From Thermococcus alcaliphilus (lineage in GTDB: Archaea; Methanobacteriota_B; Thermococci; Thermococcales; Thermococcaceae), in NCBI RefSeq assembly GCF_024054535.1, contig NZ_JAMXLV010000023.1, positions 1 through 64,000 on the forward strand: a DNA stretch of 64,000 nt, given 5' to 3'. A program made the translations under genes and the position numbers. The stretch's first letter is position 1, and each line of letters opens with the position of its first letter. Shown here piece by piece: positions 22,715 to 47,081 of this stretch. The notes under the pieces were generated by a model that saw nothing but the letters and a program-made list of their open reading frames with translations, ran no database searches and had not been told where the DNA came from.

Positions 22715-23941
22715 GTGAGAGTTGTTTTAGCGTACTCTGGAGGTTTGGATACATCGGTTATCCTTAAGCTGATGCAGGAAAAGCTGAACGCCGAGGTGAT
22801 AACAGTTACAGTAGATGTTGGGCAAAAGGACGATTTCGAAAAAATTGAAGAGAAAGCCCTGAAATTGGGAGCAGTAAAGCACTATACAATCGACGCAAAG
22901 GAAGAGTTTGCCAAGAACTACCTAACTAAGGCTATCAAATTTAATGCCCTTTACGAGGACGCTTATCCACTGGCTACAGCACTTGCAAGGCCGTTAATAG
23001 CGGAAAAGATTGTTGAAATAGCTAAAAAAGAAAACGCAGATGCAGTAGCCCACGGTTGCACGGGAAAAGGAAACGATCAAGTAAGGTTTGACCTAGCGGT
23101 TAAGGCGCTTTACCCCGAAATTCAGATTGTCGCTCCTGTAAGGGAATGGGGACTAACTAGGGATTGGGAAATGGAATATGCAAAGAAAAATGGAATTCCA
23201 GTTAAAGAGAAGATTTACAGCATTGACGAAAATCTTTGGGGCAGGAGTATAGAGGGAGGAATACTGGAAGATCCATCCGAAGAGCCTCCAGAAGAAGTTT
23301 TTGAGTGGACTCTTTCACCAGAAAAGTCCCCAGAAAAGCCTGAATATGTGACTATTGAGTTCGAAGAAGGAATTCCAGTGGCATTAAACGGAAAAGAAAT
23401 GGGTCTCGTTGAACTTATAGAAACTTTAAATCTCTTAGCTGGAAAACACGGTGTTGGCAGGATAGACCACATTGAGGACAGGACAGTTGGGATAAAGAGT
23501 AGGGAAGTCTATGAAGCCCCAGCTGCTGTGACCTTAATCAAGGCTCACAAAGACCTTGAAAAGTTTGTTCTTACTAAGTGGGTTCTTGAGTTCAAAGAAA
23601 TAGTAGACTCCAAGTGGGCTTGGCTTGTTTACAATGGCCTCTGGTTTGAGCCTCTAAGGGAAGCACTTGATGCCTTTGTTGATGCAGTAGAGAAAAATGT
23701 TAGTGGTACTGTTAAATTGAAGCTCTACAATGGAAACGCCATTGTTGTTGGAAGGGAGTCACAAAACGCATTATATGACCTTGACTTGGCAACGTATGAG
23801 AAATCCAAATACGATCAAAAGCGTGCCATAGGGTTTATCGAGCTCTTTGGAATGCAGAGCGTTTTGGCATACAGTACAGCAAGCAAACATAAGCTAAAGG
23901 ATTTTGAGAGCAAGAAGGCAGCGGAAAAAGTTGCTAGTTAG
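22715..23941 (+). CDS. argG: Argininosuccinate synthase
   Basis: Joins citrulline and aspartate with ATP to give argininosuccinate. The PP-loop [12 protein letters not shown] is at the N-terminus, followed by [27 protein letters not shown] and [16 protein letters not shown] chose GTG at 22715 (protein begins [10 protein letters not shown]) with GGTGAT upstream; in-frame TTG and GTG codons at 22703 and 22706 lie within that site. It encodes 408 residues, the normal length. argH follows after eight bases. Confidence 0.95.
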
Positions 23942-38504: not shown

Positions 38505-39215
38505 AAGCCTCTCTATAGCTTCATTTACATCTCTAACATCTTGTCCTACCATAAGAAAGTCAAAGTCTTTTCCATATGTTTTCTTGTAATTCTCTACTAA
38601 AAGGCCGTCGTTTACTGTGTCACCAATGTAAATTCCTTCTTCACCTTTTGGTAGATGCCATAGACTTCTTGGATCTGGTTTGGTGTAGAGCTCTCTTGTT
38701 ACAGCATTTTCAAAACGAAAATCGAGTATTGTCTCTGCTAACCTAAGCTCTAACGCACTTCTCCCTGTTACAACTCCAATCTTAAATCGCTCACTAGCTT
38801 TTTCTAAAAGTTCTTTCCTTACTATTGGTTTCTCCTTCTTCCAGAGCCCTTCAAACTCAAAGACTCTATTCTCATACATTTCACCGAGATAGAATGTGTT
38901 AAAAACTCTCTCGATGCTTTTTGGGTCTATCATAATTCCAAAAGTTTCTCTGACCCATTCTATGCCAGTTCCTGCTGGAAAGTCTTGCACGAATTTTCTT
39001 AGATCCCCGGTTAATGCACCGATTATTAGAGCTTCACTGACTTTAAAGTCGTCTCCAAAAGCTCCTTTTTTCCGGAGATTCCTTATTAACTCTAATTCTA
39101 CCTCAATGTTTTTTCCAAAAAATTTTAGGAAGTGCTCGGCAGTGAATTTAGTTGCTAAGTCGTAGCTTTCCCTCACATCAATTAAAACACCATCGATGTC
39201 AAATATTAGCCACAT
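38490..39215 (-). CDS. HAD-family phosphatase, likely histidinol-phosphate phosphatase
   Basis: A HAD hydrolase with motif [18 protein letters not shown], motif II VVTGRSALE, motif III KPDPRSLW and motif IV YIGDTVNDGLL, plus a helical cap between I and II. It is the last gene of a his operon that has every other enzyme but no histidinol-phosphate phosphatase (HisB here is only the dehydratase), so this step is its most likely job. That is inference from context; the HAD type sitting beside hisC is known in other archaea. I chose ATG at 39215; an in-frame TTG one codon upstream is also possible. Confidence 0.8.
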   Translation of the reverse strand: MWLIFDIDGVLIDVRESYDLATKFTAEHFLKFFGKNIEVELELIRNLRKKGAFGDDFKVSEALIIGALTGDLRKFVQDFPAGTGIEWVRETFGIMIDPKSIERVFNTFYLGEMYENRVFEFEGLWKKEKPIVRKELLEKASERFKIGVVTGRSALELRLAETILDFRFENAVTRELYTKPDPRSLWHLPKGEEGIYIGDTVNDGLLVENYKKTYGKDFDFLMVGQDVRDVNEAIERLLDIR

Positions 39216-40215
39216 CAAGGAACTCCTCCAGCGCTTTTATTAGCTCTTCATTCTCTTCCTTTCTACCCACGGTAACTCTTATGTGCCCCTGAAGTCTTCC
39301 CTCAAGTTTTCTTACTACAATCCCCCTTTCAAGCAAGAATTCGTAAGCATTAAGTCTCATCAAAAGGAAGTTCGCGTCGCTTGGATATGCATACTCCTTA
39401 AATTTTTTATAGAGTCTTTCGCGTTCTCTAACTATGTATTTTACTCTCTCTTCGATCACATTGTAATGATCCAGCATCACCATTGCTGCTATCATGCTTA
39501 AGGAGTTTACACCAAACGGTGGCTTTATTCTGTACAGTGCGTCAATAATTTCTGTATCGGCTAGCAGATAACCTAACCTTATTCCTGCCAGGCCAAAGGC
39601 CTTTGAAAAAGTCCGGAGGATTAGTAGATTATTGTACTCATCCAATAGATCGACGCAGTTTTCCTTTGAAAACTCTGCATACGCTTCATCTATAACAACG
39701 GGGGCTCCACTGTCGAGGACTTTCAAAATTTCTTCTCTTGGCTGACTGTTCCCAGTAGGATTGTTCGGGGAGGTTATGAAAATAATACTTGCTTTTTTGG
39801 CTTTTTTCGCGATCTCCTCGCCGTTTATTAGAAACTGTTCGTTGAGGGGTACCTCAACAATTGGAATCCCCTCCAGCTTTGCATAAAAGTAGTACATGCC
39901 GAATGTGGGAGGGGTAGTGATTATGTAATCCCCCTCAAAAATTTTTATTAAATAGTCCAAGAGTTCATCGCTCCCATTGCCTACAGCGACATTCCTCGGG
40001 CTGAGTCCATAAAATTCTGCAATTTTTTCTCTAAGGGGCATTGACGTTATGTGGGGATAGCGGTTAAAAGGAGTTTTTCTAAGCTTCTCGAAGATCTCAT
40101 CCTTTATTTCATCTGGTAGGTCAAATGGATTTTCATTTTTATCGAGCCAGATTCTGTAGTTTCCTTCAATCACTTTGTATGGTTTGAAAGTTTTAACCAT
40201 CTCTCTAATCTTCAT
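39199..40215 (-). CDS. hisC: Histidinol-phosphate aminotransferase
   Basis: A fold-type I PLP aminotransferase (338 residues) that converts imidazole-acetol phosphate and glutamate to histidinol phosphate. Seen: [50 protein letters not shown] and the PLP lysine in [22 protein letters not shown] at 40215 follows GAGGAGGCGTAGGAA. It overlaps hisIE by four bases. Confidence 0.94.
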
Positions 40216-40838
40216 TTCCTACGCCTCCTCAGCTCGTTCATCACTTCTCCCAAGCTTATTTCATTGTAGGCAAGTAAAACAAGTAAATGATAAAGTAAAT
40301 CGGCTGTTTCATAGATTATATTCTCTCTTTTATCGGCTACTAAAACTTCTATAGCCTCTTCCCCGAACTTTTTGTATATCTTCTCTTTTCCTTCTTTAAA
40401 TAACAAGGAAGTGTAGGATTTCTCTTTTGGAGCCTTCTTGCGTTCTTTTATGAGCTCCTCAAGTTCTCTTAGGATCGTGAGAGAATAATCTATCTCTTTC
40501 TCAGTTTTTTCGGGTTCACCAAGTTTACGATAGAAGCATGAGTAGTTCCCTGTGTGACATGCAACGCCAACTTGCTCAACAATTAAGAGTAAAGCATCGT
40601 TATCGCAGTCTATTCTTACCTCTCGTACTTTTTGAACGTTTCCGCTAATCTCACCTTTCATTCGAATCCTTTTCTGACTTCTTGAATAGTAGTGGGCGTA
40701 TCCTGTCTTAATTGTCTTTTCCAAGGCTTCTTTGTTCATATATGCTAATGTTAATACTTCTCCTTTAGTGTCTTGGACGATTACTGGGACAACGCCGTTG
40801 TTCTTTTTCCAATCAACTTTTTCGAGAAGTCTCTTCAT
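40212..40838 (-). CDS. hisIE: Bifunctional phosphoribosyl-AMP cyclohydrolase / phosphoribosyl-ATP pyrophosphatase
   Basis: A fusion of HisI (about 1-115) and HisE (about 120-208). HisI shows [34 protein letters not shown] and the metal site [13 protein letters not shown] with GVACHTG. HisE shows the acidic helical bundle [20 protein letters not shown] and [14 protein letters not shown]. Together they carry out steps two and three of histidine synthesis. Confidence 0.95.
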
Positions 40839-40844
40839 TTTCCA

Positions 40845-41600
40845 TCACTCTAGTCTTATAGGAATGCCCTTTTTGGCAAGGTACTCTTTTAGTTCTCTAA
40901 CAGTGTATTTCTCATAGTGGAATATTGATGCGGCTAAAGCAGCACTTGCGCCGATTTTAAATGCCTCGTAAAAGTGCTCTGGTTTTCCTGCTCCACCAGA
41001 AGCGATAACAGGTATATCAACGGCATCAACAATGGCCTTAGTTAATGGAATGTCAAAGCCCTGTTGAGTCCCATCTGTGTCCATACTCGTGAGTAGGATT
41101 TCACCGGCCCCGAAATTTTCGACTTCCTTTGCCCACTTTATAGCATCAATTCCCCTCGGCTTTCTTCCACCGTGTGTGTGGACTTCCCAGTATTTACCGT
41201 TCCACTTTGCATCAATCGCTATAACTAAATTTGCAGAACCAACGATCCTTGCAGCCTCTTCTATGAGCATTGGGTTGTCAACAGCGGCAGTATTAAGAAA
41301 AACCTTATCTGCTCCATTTTTGATGATCTCCTTAATCTCATCGACGCTTTTAATTCCACCACCTACAGTAAAGGGAACATAAATTTCTTCAGCTATGCTC
41401 TTAACTAGCTCCAAAAGAATTTTCCTCTTTTCAAACGAAGCTGTAATATCCAAAAAGACTATCTCATCTATTCCCTCTTCTTCATACCTCTTGGCAAGTT
41501 CTATTGGATCGCCTGCATCCCTAATGTTCTTGAATTTTATCCCCTTGACAACTCTACCATTTTTTATATCTAATGCGGCTATAACTCTTTTAGCTAACAT
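40845..41600 (-). CDS. hisF: Imidazole glycerol phosphate synthase, cyclase subunit
   Basis: A TIM barrel of 251 residues that uses ammonia from HisH to form imidazole-glycerol phosphate and AICAR. Catalytic aspartates appear in IAALDIKNGRVVKG and LTSMDTDGTQQGFD; phosphate loops in FTVGGGIKS and VIASGGAGKPEHF. ATG at 41600 follows GGAGGCTTTAAA. Confidence 0.96.
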   Translation of the reverse strand: MLAKRVIAALDIKNGRVVKGIKFKNIRDAGDPIELAKRYEEEGIDEIVFLDITASFEKRKILLELVKSIAEEIYVPFTVGGGIKSVDEIKEIIKNGADKVFLNTAAVDNPMLIEEAARIVGSANLVIAIDAKWNGKYWEVHTHGGRKPRGIDAIKWAKEVENFGAGEILLTSMDTDGTQQGFDIPLTKAIVDAVDIPVIASGGAGKPEHFYEAFKIGASAALAASIFHYEKYTVRELKEYLAKKGIPIRLE

Positions 41601-42283
41601 TTTAAAGCCTCCAGCACCTCTTGTAATTTAATTTTGCCTTCATAAAGGGCCTTTCCGATAATTACGCCCGAAAATCCTGTGCCTTTAAGTTTCAAAATAT
41701 CATCTATGCTTGAAACCCCTCCAGCGTATATGAACTCTTCTTTCCCCCAAAATCGTTTTATGTTCCCTATCCCAGTTAAAGTGCCGTCTTTTTCAGTCGC
41801 TGTGTAGATAAATCTGTCAATGTAATCCTTGAGCATCTCATACGCTTCTTCGACTTTTAATGAACTCTCCTCCACCCATCCCTTCAAAACGATTTTTCCA
41901 CCTCTTGCGTCTAAACTAACGGTTATACCATCGAAATCTCGAACTACTTTTTCCAAAAATTCCGTGTCAAAGGCTTTAGTGCCGATTATAACGTTCTCAA
42001 CTCCAATCTTGTAAGCTTTTGCAATGCTTTCATAACTCCTGAAGCCGCCTCCAATTTGAACTTTCATACCGGTTTTATCTATTATTTCCTTAACAACGTC
42101 GAGATTTTGTGGGTTCCCTGTAAAAGCCCCATCTAAGTCGACAATATGTATTTTGTCAACATAATTCGCAAATCTTTCGGCAATCTCTACGGGATTGCCA
42201 TAAACTTTTACATTCTCCTTTCTTCCTTTGTAAAGGCGGACGGCCTTTCCGCTCATGATGTCAATAGCAGGGTATACCTCCAT
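41594..42283 (-). CDS. hisA: HisA, ProFAR isomerase
   Basis: A half-barrel-duplicated TIM protein of 229 residues that isomerises ProFAR to PRFAR. It begins VYPAIDIMSGKAVRLYKG with the catalytic Asp and carries IVDLDGAFTG, VQIGGGFRS and FIYTATEKDGTLTG with the second catalytic Asp/Thr region. It overlaps hisF by seven bases. Confidence 0.95.
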   Translation of the reverse strand: MEVYPAIDIMSGKAVRLYKGRKENVKVYGNPVEIAERFANYVDKIHIVDLDGAFTGNPQNLDVVKEIIDKTGMKVQIGGGFRSYESIAKAYKIGVENVIIGTKAFDTEFLEKVVRDFDGITVSLDARGGKIVLKGWVEESSLKVEEAYEMLKDYIDRFIYTATEKDGTLTGIGNIKRFWGKEEFIYAGGVSSIDDILKLKGTGFSGVIIGKALYEGKIKLQEVLEALKC

Positions 42284-42284
42284 A

Positions 42285-42872
42285 TCAAAGCCTCCTGAAG
42301 TTTCTCAAAAGCTTTAGGCCAACTTTGCCTGATTTCTCTGGATGGAACTGAACACCAAAGACGTTATCTCTCCAGACTGCTGATGGGAAAACTATCTCCC
42401 TTCCTTTCGATTGATAATCTGTAACGCCGGTAACTATGTCTCTGTTCTCGGGATTTGCATAGTAAGAGTGGACAAAGTAAAAGTAAGCTCCATCCTTTAT
42501 TCCCTCAAACAGGGGACAATCTTTTTTCTGCCACACCTGGTTCCAGCCGATGTGCGGTGTTCTAACTCCTCTAAACCTCACAATGTTACCTTTGAATATC
42601 CCCAACCCCTTTCCTTCACTCTCTTCGCTCCACTCAAAGAGTAACTGGAGTCCAAGACATATCCCGAGGAATGGCTTCCCTTCGTTTATACCATCTATGA
42701 TAGCTCCCCGTAGTGGCTCAAGCTTCTCCATCACTGCTCCAAAATTTCCAACACCGGGGAGGACTATTTTCTCGGCCTTCTCTATCTCGTAGGGATCGTT
42801 TGTTATTTTCCCACCCAAGGCCTTTCTCACGTTGGCTAAGTTTCCTATGCCAAGATCAATTATTGTTATCGT
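42285..42872 (-). CDS. hisH: Imidazole glycerol phosphate synthase, glutaminase subunit (non-canonical start)
   Basis: A class I glutamine amidotransferase partner of HisF: VLPGVGNFGAVMEKL, the nucleophile in PFLGICLGLQLLFEWSEE, and the catalytic His-Glu in VFGVQFHPEKSGKVG. The conserved N-terminal strand ([15 protein letters not shown]) is in frame upstream of the first normal start, a GTG at 42830. Aligned with relatives that begin M-I-x-V-V-D-L-G-I-G-N, the start Met falls on ACG at 42872. The GGGGTG site upstream supports this position. The frame contains no ATG, GTG or TTG there. The coordinates use the ACG. Confidence 0.85.
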   Translation of the reverse strand, partial: TITIIDLGIGNLANVRKALGGKITNDPYEIEKAEKIVLPGVGNFGAVMEKLEPLRGAIIDGINEGKPFLGICLGLQLLFEWSEESEGKGLGIFKGNIVRFRGVRTPHIGWNQVWQKKDCPLFEGIKDGAYFYFVHSYYANPENRDIVTGVTDYQSKGREIVFPSAVWRDNVFGVQFHPEKSGKVGLKLLRNFRRL

Positions 42873-43402
42873 CTTAACACCCCTTTTGTGCTCTTTAAGC
42901 GCTTGCTCTGACTCAGGGCCTGCTTTAGAGCAACTCCCAGTCCCTTAAAGGTCGCTTCTATTATATGGTGGGCATTAATTCCGCTCAATTGCTTCACATG
43001 TATTGTGGCACCAAGAGTCCTCGCTAGGGCCCAAAGAAACTCCCTCACTAAGGTTAGCTCAAAGCCCTCTTCATTTTCCTTGAGATCAAGTTCAAGATTG
43101 AGGTATGGTCTTGAAATATCAACTGCAATGAGAACTAATGCATCATCCATTGGCATTATTGCGTTCCCAAAGCGTGTTATCTTTTTGTTTCTGATCTTCT
43201 CTCTAAGTTCTTCCCCCAACACTATGCCTAAATCCTCCCACAAGTGGTGTCTTAAATCATAAGTGGCCCTGATGTTGACGTTCTCTTCCATGTAAAAGAA
43301 TAAAGCGGTGAGGAGGTGGTCGAATACCCTGTCTCCAGTGTTTATGCTTCCTTCAATGCCAATCTCTACGGTTATGTCAGTTTCTCGTGTTTTTCGTTTC
43401 AT
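42866..43402 (-). CDS. hisB: Imidazoleglycerol-phosphate dehydratase
   Basis: A monofunctional dehydratase of 178 residues. Metal-binding motifs are [46 protein letters not shown] and [15 protein letters not shown]. No phosphatase domain is attached, so histidinol-phosphate dephosphorylation must be done by another gene. ATG at 43402 follows GAGGTAAGAAA. Confidence 0.95.
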
Positions 43403-44532
43403 TTTCTTACCTCCATTGATTTCTTGTGCATTTCAAGGCCCTCAATTTCAGCTAGACGAATTCCCAAGTATCTCTCCCTCAAGAACTCCTCTCTGCTGAC
43501 GTATGCTAAGCTAATCTTTTTCATGAAATCCATCACTGTTAAAACTCCACTAAACCTTGCTGTTCCTCCAGTTGGTAAGACGTGGTTAACTCCAAGGAAA
43601 TAATCTGCTGCCGGCACGGGGGTGTATTCTCCCAAATATATGGCTCCCGCATTTTCTATCAGCTCTACCAGCTTCATAGGCTCCTTTGTGAGTATCTCTA
43701 AGTGCTCTGGAGCTATTTCGTTGGCTTTTTTGGCGCATTCTTCTAGGCTCTCACATAGAACAACTTCAATTCCTTCCACATTACAGTATTCTGCGAGCTC
43801 TTTTGAAGTTGTCAAAAGCCAGGCTTTCGAGTCTTTTCCGTGTTCAAGTTGGGAAAGTAGATCATACAACACATACTCTTTCTTTGCGGTTTCGTCTGCT
43901 ATGACAGCTATTTCCGATGGCCCAGCTAAGCTATCTATCCCTACAATACCAAAAACTTGCCTCTTTGCTTCATTTACGAACTTGTTGCCCGGACCGAAGA
44001 TTTTATCTACCTTCTTCATGCCGATTCCATAAGCCATTGCCCCAATCGCTTGAATGCCTCCAAGCTTGTAAACCTCTTTAATATCAAGAATCTCTGCGAT
44101 GTATAGCACATAAGGATCAACTTTGCCATCTTTAGGCGGTGTTGTAACGACTATCTCTTTAACTCCGGCTATCTTTGCCGGCACACCAATCATCATAAGC
44201 GTTGAAGGTAATGGCTTTCCTCCTGGAACATAGATTCCTATTCTCCTGATAGGTCTATAAATTATCCCGTAAATTGATGCATTTCTTATGTAAAGCTCGT
44301 CCTTTTCTTTTTGTCTTGCGTGATACTCCCAAATTCTTTCTATTATGCGCTTAATGATCTCTTTATCCCTCTCTGGAATTTGCTTTTCTGCCTCGTCAAA
44401 TTCCTCTTCACTTACACGAAATTCTCCATCGTATCCATCGAACTTTTTTGAATATTCTCTAACAGCTTCAACGCCTCTTTCCCTGATATCTCTTAAGATC
44501 TCGGCTACGTAGCTTTCTAATTCAAGATCCAT
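43399..44532 (-). CDS. hisD: Histidinol dehydrogenase
   Basis: A zinc and NAD enzyme of 377 residues that oxidises histidinol to histidine in two steps. Family blocks include [49 protein letters not shown] and [12 protein letters not shown]; the metal and catalytic residues lie in [11 protein letters not shown] and [19 protein letters not shown]. It overlaps hisG by 11 bases and has GGAGGTCATTAAAA before its ATG. Confidence 0.95.
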
Positions 44533-45139
44533 TTTTAATGACCTCCTTAATTTTTAAAACAAGCTTGTTAACCTCCTCAAACTTTGTTTTTTGTGATATT
44601 CTGTTAACCAAAAGGAGAGCAGAAACATCCATAATCTTCTCTATCTCGATCAGGTTATTTGCTTTCAATGTATTGCCTGTCTCAACAATATCAACAATAG
44701 CATCTGCAATCCCGATTCTTGGGGCGAGCTCAATACTTCCGTGGAGCTTTATCACTTCGACTTCAATTCCTTTTTTCTCGAAGAATCTTTTCGTGAGATT
44801 TGGGTATTTGGTGGCGATTCTGAACCCGTCCATTTCCTCAACATCAACTACGTTGTCTTTAGGCATTGCCAAACTTAAGCGACACTTTCCAAAAGGTAGT
44901 TCAAGTGGAACGAGCACGTCACTTCCCCTCTCTTCAACCACGTCGCTTCCAGCTATACCTACATCTATCCCATGTTCCACATATACTGGAACATCGAAAG
45001 ATCTAGCTAAAAGAAGTTCATATCCGCCATTTTTTACTATTAGTTCTCTGTTTTTTGGTGTTTCTAGTCTAATTCCGGCTTTTTTCAAAATTTCAAGTGA
45101 ACCACTAAGCAATCGGCCTTTAGGAAGAACAAATCTCAT
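44522..45139 (-). CDS. hisG: ATP phosphoribosyltransferase, short catalytic form
   Basis: Catalyses the first, committed step of histidine synthesis. At 205 residues it lacks the C-terminal regulatory domain of long HisG and so needs HisZ, which is encoded just upstream. Seen: [34 protein letters not shown] and the PRPP loop [22 protein letters not shown] at 45139 follows GGAGGTGGAAGA. Confidence 0.95.
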
Positions 45140-46026
45140 TCTTCCACCTCCACTGGGACGCCAAGCTTAACGAGCCTTCTTGCAAGTCTGTACGCTTTCT
45201 GGAGATCTCCACCAATCTTTTTTCTGCTCTTCTCGAGTTTCCCTCCGGCAAGTTTTGAAAGCGCGCTCAGGTCAAAAGCAAATCCAAAGGCACTAGTTCC
45301 TTTGAAGATGTACTCTCCTCCCCCACCTAGGGGCTTGCCGAGCTTAGATGAATAAACTTCAAAGATTATGTCGCTGTAGTAGGGTAGAGGTCTTATTGTT
45401 CCGAAGTCTATGAAGATCCTTTCATCGTCAATTATCTCGATGATTTTGTTGAGCTTCTCATATTCGCAACTTTTTCCTCTGAAATTAAATAAACGCCAGA
45501 GTTCTTCTTTTTTCTTCTTGTTTATGGGGAGTTTTTCAATGATTTCAAAATTTCTACTTGTTAGGGCCTTGAATACTTCTGTTTCAAATTCTTCAATCCC
45601 TTTAATGGCATTCTTCCACATTCCCAAACTGCCAACATCAATGTAAAAATCTTCAATCCCGAGTGCTTCGAGGGATGTTATAACCGTTAGCAGAACCTCC
45701 ACCGCCATTTTTGTGATGTCTCCTCCAATGTACTCAACACCGGCCTGCCATTCCCCTTTAACGCCTCCATCTAGAACCTCGCTGATGTAATAAAGCTTAA
45801 GCTTTTTGGGAGCTTTCAGATTCACCAGAATCTGCGACGTCAAATCGGGTTTTATAATGTAAAATTCATTGTTGTATGAGAACTTTGTGCCTTTCCTGAG
45901 TTCTCTATTGAATTCCTCTATTGTTGGCAGGAATATCTCCTTATACCCCCAAAGCTCAAATGTCCTCCTTAAATACTTGGCAATATTCGCTAGTCTCTCT
46001 GATTCGGAAAATATATCCTTCCTCAC
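45136..46026 (-). CDS. hisZ: ATP phosphoribosyltransferase regulatory subunit HisZ
   Basis: A histidyl-tRNA-synthetase paralogue (296 residues) that activates short HisG and confers feedback inhibition. It keeps the HisRS motif 1-2 region ([21 protein letters not shown]) and a later [19 protein letters not shown], but has no anticodon domain. It starts with GTG at 46026, with GGAGGGG upstream. It is the first enzyme gene of the operon, behind a leader ORF ending in three His codons, and its ribosome site can pair with upstream sequence (46077-46082). Confidence 0.9.
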
Positions 46027-46034
46027 AATAGCCC

Positions 46035-46082
46035 CTCCAAAAGCTTTTGGTTTAAAATCTCTTCAGCTAATTGATATTGGAG
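46035..46082 (-). promoter_or_regulatory. Alternative pairing region over the hisZ ribosome site
   Basis: On the minus strand CTCCAA (46082-46077) can pair with TTGGAG (46040-46035), which overlaps the hisZ Shine-Dalgarno GGAGGGG. The perfect palindrome CCAAAAG-CTTTTGG (46050-46037) competes for the same bases. A TGGA just after the leader ORF could instead take up the TCCA. Such mutually exclusive pairs resemble leader-peptide attenuation at the translation level. This is read by eye; no folding was computed. Confidence 0.45.
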
Positions 46083-46101
46083 TACACACTTTCCAGAATA
46101 G

Positions 46102-46206
46102 TCAATGATGATGGTAGTAAGTCACCAGAACAGCAATAGAAGATACACTCTCCCAGGGTTGTATCATTTTTTCACTTTTGGTTCTTAATATCTCTAAGCT
46201 CTTCAT
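46102..46206 (-). CDS. Candidate histidine-operon leader peptide (34 aa, ends YYHHH)
   Basis: An ORF of 34 codons lies between the his promoter and hisZ. It starts ATG at 46206 behind GGTGGT with a five-base spacer and ends TAC TAC CAT CAT CAT TGA, so the peptide closes with Tyr-Tyr-His-His-His. The first ten residues read MKSLEILRTK and the middle contains MIQPWESVSS. Three adjacent His codons at the end of a short ORF in a his leader resemble the bacterial his attenuator, whose ribosome stalls when His-tRNA is scarce. The strong ribosome site and TATA box support translation. The regulatory role is inferred. Confidence 0.7.
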   Translation of the reverse strand: MKSLEILRTKSEKMIQPWESVSSIAVLVTYYHHH

Positions 46207-46238
46207 TTTTTACCACCTTGATTGCTGATATTTTCATG

Positions 46239-46250
46239 CTTTATAAATCT
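46239..46250 (-). promoter_or_regulatory. TATA box of the his operon
   Basis: Minus-strand AGATTTATAAAG. Transcription would begin near 46220, just ahead of the GGTGGT site of the leader ORF. The transcript then has about 190 bases before hisZ. Confidence 0.6.
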
Positions 46251-46325
46251 TATGGCGAAAAACTTTCGGTGCTATCAAGAGAAAGATTAAATCCTCGGAA
46301 ACACAATTGAACTATGGTGGTGAAG

Positions 46326-47081
46326 ATGTTTGCTGAGATAATCACCATAGGAGATGAACTGCTGACCGGCAACACCGTTGACAGCAACTCCGCGTTTATA
46401 GCTCAAAAGCTCACGGAAAGGGGATATTGGGTAAAGAGAATAACAACCGTTGGGGATGATGTTGAGGACATAAAAAGCGTGATCAGAGAGGCTCTCTCCC
46501 GAAAGCCAGAAGTCTTGATAATAGCTGGGGGGTTAGGTCCAACACACGACGATGTTACGATGATTGCAGTTGCCAAAGCTCTTGGCGTTGAATTGGAATT
46601 AAGGGAAGATGCCCTCAGGAGAATTGAGGAATTTTACTTGGATCTCTATAAGAAGGGCTTTATAGATGATCCGGAAATTAATGAGGCACGTAAAAAGATG
46701 GCGTACCTACCAAAGGGAGCCGAGATGCTCAACAACCCCGTTGGGGCTGCTCCAGGCGCTTTTTTGAGTTATGAAAACACAAAAATATTTGTCCTCCCCG
46801 GAATGCCAAGAGAAATGAAGGCAATGCTTGAAAACGAAGTGCTTCCCAGACTTGGAAGGAGAGTGTTCATTCAAAAAAAGCTTCTAGCAGAGATAACAGA
46901 CGAATCGAAGCTTGCTCCAATATTAAATGAAACGTTGAGCAAGTTCAGGATAAAGATACACTCATCTCCAAAGGGCTTTGGGAAATACATTGGAATAATT
47001 CTCTTTGGAGAATCAGAGGAGGAAATTGAAAGAGCAAAGAAATTCATGGAGGAAAAGGGAATAAGGTTTGAAGAGGTTTAA
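46326..47081 (+). CDS. CinA-like MoCF-domain protein (COG1058)
   Basis: A 251-residue protein with the molybdopterin-binding/CinA N-terminal fold: EIITIGDELLTGNTVDSN, IIAGGLGPTHDDVT and FVLPGMPREMKAM. It lacks the C-terminal amidase domain of bacterial CinA. Members are proposed to hydrolyse ADP-ribose or related nucleotides; the archaeal role is unclear. ATG at 46326 follows GGTGGTGAAG; the longer frame from 46314 is just the ribosome site read through. It overlaps pyruvate kinase tail to tail by four bases. Confidence 0.82.
   Translation: MFAEIITIGDELLTGNTVDSNSAFIAQKLTERGYWVKRITTVGDDVEDIKSVIREALSRKPEVLIIAGGLGPTHDDVTMIAVAKALGVELELREDALRRIEEFYLDLYKKGFIDDPEINEARKKMAYLPKGAEMLNNPVGAAPGAFLSYENTKIFVLPGMPREMKAMLENEVLPRLGRRVFIQKKLLAEITDESKLAPILNETLSKFRIKIHSSPKGFGKYIGIILFGESEEEIERAKKFMEEKGIRFEEV

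Follow-up and report, generated by a model that had tools for sequence, protein, structure and literature searches.

The histidine (his) operon of Thermococcus alcaliphilus is read from the minus strand in the window (the whole 64,000-nt stretch of DNA that was analysed), and a short ORF ending in three His codons lies between its promoter and its first structural gene. The features of this region are:

46240-46247, minus strand: TATA box TTTATAAA of the his promoter, read from the sequence, about 34-41 nt 5' of the leader ATG
46212-46217, minus strand: Shine-Dalgarno (SD) sequence GGTGGT of the leader ORF, with a 5-base spacer to the ATG
46102-46206, minus strand: putative leader ORF of 34 codons, MKSLEILRTKSEKMIQPWESVSSIAVLVTYYHHH followed by a stop, taken from the sequence and the ORF list; kept in 47 of 47 hisZ-bearing Thermococcales
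46206-46204, minus strand: ATG start of the leader ORF, read from the sequence
46104-46102, minus strand: TGA stop of the leader ORF, preceded by TAC TAC CAT CAT CAT (Tyr-Tyr-His-His-His-stop)
46105-46113, minus strand: proposed sensor, three CAT (His) codons adjoining the stop; 2-4 tandem His codons in 47 of 47 genomes
46110-46126, minus strand: possible small hairpin (GGTG...CATC) that starts just ahead of the His codons and runs into the first of them, suggestive only
46095-46101, minus strand: pyrimidine element CTATTCT (consensus CNNTTCT) directly after the leader stop; TTCT placement kept in 47 of 47 genomes
46032-46038, minus strand: SD sequence GGAGGGG of hisZ, the proposed masked target, read from the sequence; pairing weak in the T. 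alcaliphilus genome
45136-46026, minus strand: hisZ, the first structural gene of the operon, with a GTG start at 46026; TIGR00443 match with E 7e-34, below the model cut-off
39199-45139, minus strand: the rest of the operon, hisG, hisD, hisB, hisH, hisA, hisF, hisIE and hisC, by NCBIfam matches over cut-off

The first-pass annotation had described a his operon preceded by an ORF with its own SD sequence, placed between a TATA box and hisZ and ending Tyr-Tyr-His-His-His. Direct reading and the ORF list confirmed the ORF, and NCBIfam models identified the his genes downstream of it, the first of which appears to be hisZ or a hisZ-like gene on the strength of a match that is clear but lies under the curated TIGR00443 cut-off. 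The leader SD sequence is close to the Thermococcus consensus GGDGRD (PMC4247193). Since the distance from TATA box to transcription start site is about 23 bp (PMC4247193), we infer that his transcription starts near 46220, although the start is unmapped. The leader stop is separated from the hisZ GTG by 75 nt, and the divergent neighbour on the other side of the his promoter is a CinA-family gene that starts at 46314.

HisZ was found in 47 of 94 Thermococcales genomes, T. alcaliphilus included, and the region upstream of each hisZ gene was extracted. Directly 5' of hisZ, every one of these genomes carries an ATG-started, in-frame ORF of 12-43 codons whose terminal His run comprises two codons in 23 genomes, three in another 23 and four in one. 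The stop follows the last His codon immediately in 34 of the 47 and one to six codons later in the others (HHLF, HHPF, HHRLF, HHHCRLFYN), and it is TGA in 46 genomes and TAA in one; LLVSYCHHH, PALLVSYRHH, RVSLHH and WVSHCHHHLF, each followed by a stop, are typical ends. In genome G082, TGC replaces the leader stop TGA of close relatives giving a longer peptide that ends ...HHHCRLFYN and a naturally occurring change in the distance between stop and His run. A TATA-like hexamer is present 26-52 nt 5' of the leader ATG in 43 genomes, and the gap between leader and hisZ measures 24-30 nt in five genomes and 36-80 nt in the rest. Searching the 94 genomes with the core pattern GTGASYTAYYRCCATCAT gave 37 matches with at most one mismatch, 33 of them at hisZ; the 29 exact ones among them are all at hisZ, whereas a reversed control pattern gave one match. 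Judged by these searches, hisZ is essentially the only site of the core motif. All of the evidence is comparative, and since the 47 genomes share ancestry, the counts do not represent independent events. The earlier annotation had considered a terminal His run ahead of a his operon unlikely to arise by chance, had proposed comparing the his 5' regions of relatives, and had named absence of the ORF or its His codons from close relatives as grounds for refutation. Our comparison places the run beyond chance, given its presence in all 47 genomes and the tie of the core motif to hisZ; the ORF and the His run are kept while other bases vary, and the refuting outcome, for which we checked, did not materialize.

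The reading frame of the leader is maintained far more strictly than its sequence. With the distance from the core back to the nearest stop as the measure, frame 0 stays open over 18 codons or more in 47 of 47 genomes (median 40), compared with at least 15 codons in only 12 and 17 of 47 for the other two frames. Outside the last residues the peptide is unconserved: differences between close pairs number 146, 165 and 171 at codon positions 1, 2 and 3, without loss of frame, and pairwise sums over close relatives give 287 nonsynonymous versus 79 synonymous codon changes in the leader body (the pairs are not independent). From a body free at all three positions, a frame that nonetheless remains open and a fixed His run, we interpret the ORF as a sensor rather than a protein; on sequence grounds, an open, freely varying body joined to a fixed end of cognate codons would be the signature of a sensor leader. 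The choice of His codon is also skewed, with CAT outnumbering CAC by 115 to 4 among the 119 leader His codons counted, versus 167 to 171 in long ORFs of the his loci. CAT is read through wobble by a GUG anticodon, and wobble decoding could favor stalling; an alternative reason for the bias would be constraint on the nucleotide sequence.

Downstream of the run, TTCT begins 3, 6 or 9 nt past the last His codon in 47 of 47 genomes, whether or not the stop comes before it. CNNTTCT could contribute the 5' strand of a helix formed with the hisZ SD sequence, or could be a U-rich loading site of FttA (aCPSF1); it is not the best possible SD complement and may serve something other than SD pairing. Between the post-His segment and the hisZ SD sequence we counted a mean of 3.05 pairs versus 1.38 for shuffled arms, with 22 of 47 sequences at p ≤ 0.1, and a stricter duplex test of the SD-masking helix gave p ≤ 0.1 in 18 of 47. 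Pairing reaches at least 13 bp and includes the start region in one Thermococcus clade; in another clade the helix is 93.9% paired versus at most 65% when slid and contains two double substitutions, and within-pair shuffles there often equal the observed covariation score. In T. alcaliphilus the helix is weak (-6.0 kcal/mol, p 0.48), as it is in several relatives. Modelling a stalled ribosome shifted the opening of the SD sequence only slightly on average and almost not at 80 °C. A universal anti-SD model was rejected on account of the many genomes, T. alcaliphilus included, that do not bear it out in sliding-window duplex tests and ribosome-occupancy folding. The small hairpin before the His codons (z about -1.1 in T. 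alcaliphilus, mean -1.2 over 47 sequences), for which GGTG stands at the expected place in 34 of 47, overlaps the coding constraint and is suggestive only. No terminator-like sites were found within 45900-46400, and Rfam searches with E values allowed up to 5 returned no His leader or T-box match; the hits were snoRNA, sRNA and lncRNA models at chance level. An archaeal C/D box RNA on the opposite strand, where the antisense reads ATGATGA, was also rejected (sR4, 16.4 bits versus a gathering threshold of 50; snoU2_19, 21.7 versus 39).

Examination of other amino-acid operons as controls brought up an ilvB-ilvC-leuA... operon, which is present in 6 of the 94 Thermococcales genomes and preceded by an Ile/Leu/Val-rich leader ORF in five of them, drawn from two genera; the sixth genome has no such leader. 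The five ORFs end ...VALLVLLSIIIGLIILL, MNVRTSTLTFMSSLPLTLAILILLVIIIIIILI, ...TIIVLLLLILIIIGLIILL, MNTLNLHPRTILQTLLIVILVIIIIIIRA and MTPRRTNLSISCLLLGVSAIAVIIGIIIL (loci L139, L140, L141, L142 and L144, each followed by a stop), for example ...LLVIIIIIILI, so that Ile, Leu or Val make up 11-15 of the last 16 residues, and they lie 46-86 nt from ilvB. ATT accounts for 27 of their 34 Ile codons versus 187 of 964 (19%) in long ORFs there. Inspection by eye of the gaps behind these ORFs revealed no bacterial terminator. Position and codon choice favor reading them as leader peptides, an inference from sequence alone that does not exclude small membrane proteins.

No Trp leader was seen before trpC in 15 genomes; instead, a recurring TGTCCAAA-like element beside the trp TATA box (loci L064-L076) looks like a transcription-factor operator. 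No Arg leader was found before argG, and argG promoters (in the window, match at 22718-23200, plus strand; loci L125-L133) have in common, around their TATA boxes, sequences resembling TTACAAAAAATATAAAA and TTTGTAAC that may be an operator. Nothing resembling the hisZ leader was found before hisS in 20 genomes, nor was there an aromatic leader upstream of the DAHP synthase gene in the 17 genomes inspected, in which the gene lies directly behind another gene and the start of the operon was not covered.

We propose that the leader peptide senses charged His-tRNA through the ribosome and that his-operon expression responds, a reading to which we assign a probability of roughly 0.8 in the absence of RNA, ribosome-profiling or reporter data. 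Transcription would start just 5' of the ORF and the leader would be translated first, as inferred from the TATA box, SD sequence and ATG, with the start unmapped. When histidine is plentiful, the ribosome would pass the tandem CAT codons and leave at the adjoining stop; when histidine is scarce, it would stall on these codons and, by inference, cover about 15 nt on each side, including the stop and CNNTTCT, and this stall would turn the his operon on. The sensing step is strongly inferred, and regulation by the leader is inferred. The open frame, the CAT bias, the tie of the core motif to hisZ, the placement of TATA box and SD sequence that suits the ORF as first cistron, and the independent Ile/Leu/Val-rich leader at ilvB speak for this reading; the lack of a comparable leader at hisS, trp and argG counts against it. 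In the form that we prefer for the last step, departure of the ribosome would allow the post-His segment to pair with the hisZ SD sequence and start region, leaving hisZ untranslated and its RNA prone to FttA-dependent polarity, and a stalled ribosome would hold the post-His segment, thus freeing the hisZ ribosome-binding site (RBS). This unmasking has support in several lineages and is weak in T. alcaliphilus, and our preference for it is tentative, its chances being a little short of even. Control of an archaeal his operon by a His leader peptide, as the first-pass annotation had envisaged by analogy with bacteria, is supported by the occurrence of the leader in all 47 genomes, its free body and its fixed His run. 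Two points refine that proposal: terminator and antiterminator hairpins of the E. coli type are absent, and Thermococcales have a second candidate amino-acid leader, at ilvB.

The last step could also be explained with the same leader and the same sensing if the switch were premature termination by FttA. A ribosome leaving at the stop would expose the U-rich CNNTTCT and the untranslated gap, FttA would terminate transcription before or in hisZ, and a stalled ribosome would shield the RNA. The constant placement of TTCT behind the last His codon, regardless of the stop position, fits this explanation, as do the preference of FttA for U-rich stretches located some 30-36 nt upstream of the RNA 3' end, the possible mutual exclusion of FttA and the ribosome on RNAP/Spt5 (PMC11616081; PMC8116511), the attribution of archaeal polarity to FttA (PMC12548453), and the pyrimidine-rich gaps after four of the five ilvB leaders. 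Nevertheless, no FttA sites have been predicted or mapped at the hisZ leader, a 7-nt pyrimidine element is weak evidence, and the ilvB gap of genome G022 is not U-rich, so that termination by FttA is conceivable as the switch without being probable. A mixture with RBS unmasking is possible, since an untranslated hisZ would itself invite polarity (PMC12548453; PMC11616081).

Leader-peptide sensing, our main reading, must also be weighed against explanations in which the ORF is not a histidine sensor. The core could be an operator, bound as DNA by a transcription factor, in which His codons appear in frame by accident; its conservation at the nucleotide level is strong and includes bases past the stop, and trp and argG in Thermococcales have shared elements near their TATA boxes. 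This is very unlikely, however, because the promoter is about 100 nt upstream of the core, the distances between the parts of the core change by whole codons, the frame through it is open in 47 of 47 genomes, and His codons ahead of his genes would be a coincidence. The translatable ORF in every his-operon genome might instead encode a small protein with a His tail and a function in its own right, an idea that we give hardly any credence in view of a length that ranges from 12 to 43 codons, a sequence unconserved outside the last residues and the lack of third-position bias. Translational coupling, in which ribosomes finishing at the leader stop would reinitiate at hisZ, suits the five genomes with the shortest gaps but not the 36-80 nt gaps of the remaining ones, and coupling in Haloferax and E. 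coli fades past about 30 nt (PMC12548453); it also leaves the His run unexplained and is highly improbable.

With respect to origin, no HisZ was found outside Thermococcales within the same phylum, and the closest hisZ genes in Thermoplasmatota and Thermotogae MAGs are not preceded by a His leader. Because hisZ lacks a leader in those two groups, the Thermococcales leader looks like an invention within the order, or one that was lost elsewhere. In two Thermotogae MAGs (L093 and L094), whose hisZ is 53 and 49% identical to archaeal hisZ, a strong terminator-like hairpin, GGGAACCCGCCCGGGTTCCCTGATTTTTT, lies shortly 5' of hisZ; it might act as a bacterial attenuator or mark where the upstream gene ends.

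In bacteria, attenuation by leader peptides is textbook knowledge. The remark of the first-pass annotation that it knew of no described amino-acid leader peptide of this kind in Archaea agrees with our search, which found no earlier report in the open-access literature and did not extend to subscription papers or preprints; this kind of leader is known from bacteria, and its archaeal member is undescribed as far as that literature shows (cf. the 2014 statement in PMC4247193). With candidates at both his and ilv-leu, it is probable that amino-acid leader peptides serve Thermococcales as a general regulatory device, the stalled ribosome either unmasking an RBS or shielding RNA from FttA. If true, Archaea would gain their first example of ribosome-mediated attenuation, in which codons decoded by wobble (CAT, ATT) would have been selected to make stalling sharper. 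The occurrence of the His-ending ORF ahead of the his operon in all 47 genomes suggests that Thermococcales, like many bacteria, sense amino-acid lack by ribosome stalling ahead of biosynthetic genes. The conservation of the leader across a genetically tractable order makes it testable whether translation controls downstream expression via amino-acid supply in Archaea, in what way the ribosome and FttA compete, and whether the two domains evolved attenuation separately.

Comparison with known systems places the Thermococcales leader beside enterobacterial hisL (transcription attenuation; Rfam His_leader): it too is a short ORF with a His run, is inferred from the TATA-like element 5' of it in 43 of 47 genomes to be the first cistron of the his transcript, and is proposed to stall ribosomes on uncharged His-tRNA. 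The Thermococcales leader differs in being archaeal, in having its His run directly at the stop codon, and in lacking both a terminator-like hairpin with a U-run and an Rfam match. The T-box riboswitch of Firmicutes and Actinobacteria also senses uncharged His-tRNA before his genes, whereas the Thermococcales sensor would be a translated ORF and has no T-box match. With erm-type translational attenuators, in which a stalled ribosome unmasks a downstream RBS, it would share the logic proposed for the last step. In several lineages pairing between the post-His segment and the hisZ RBS is possible, with significance in 18-22 of 47 genomes, but this pairing is not universal, and the signal would be uncharged tRNA rather than an antibiotic. 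The ilvB leaders, for their part, resemble the bacterial ilvGMEDA, ilvBN and ilvBNC leaders in being Ile/Leu/Val-rich and ahead of the same pathway, but are archaeal and have no bacterial terminator visible by eye. Although the Thermococcales his leader fails the terminator and Rfam criteria of the bacterial family, it is inferred to work like a bacterial leader, and the bacterial his-leader criterion of a short ORF with tandem His codons directly 5' of his genes is met in 47 of 47 genomes.
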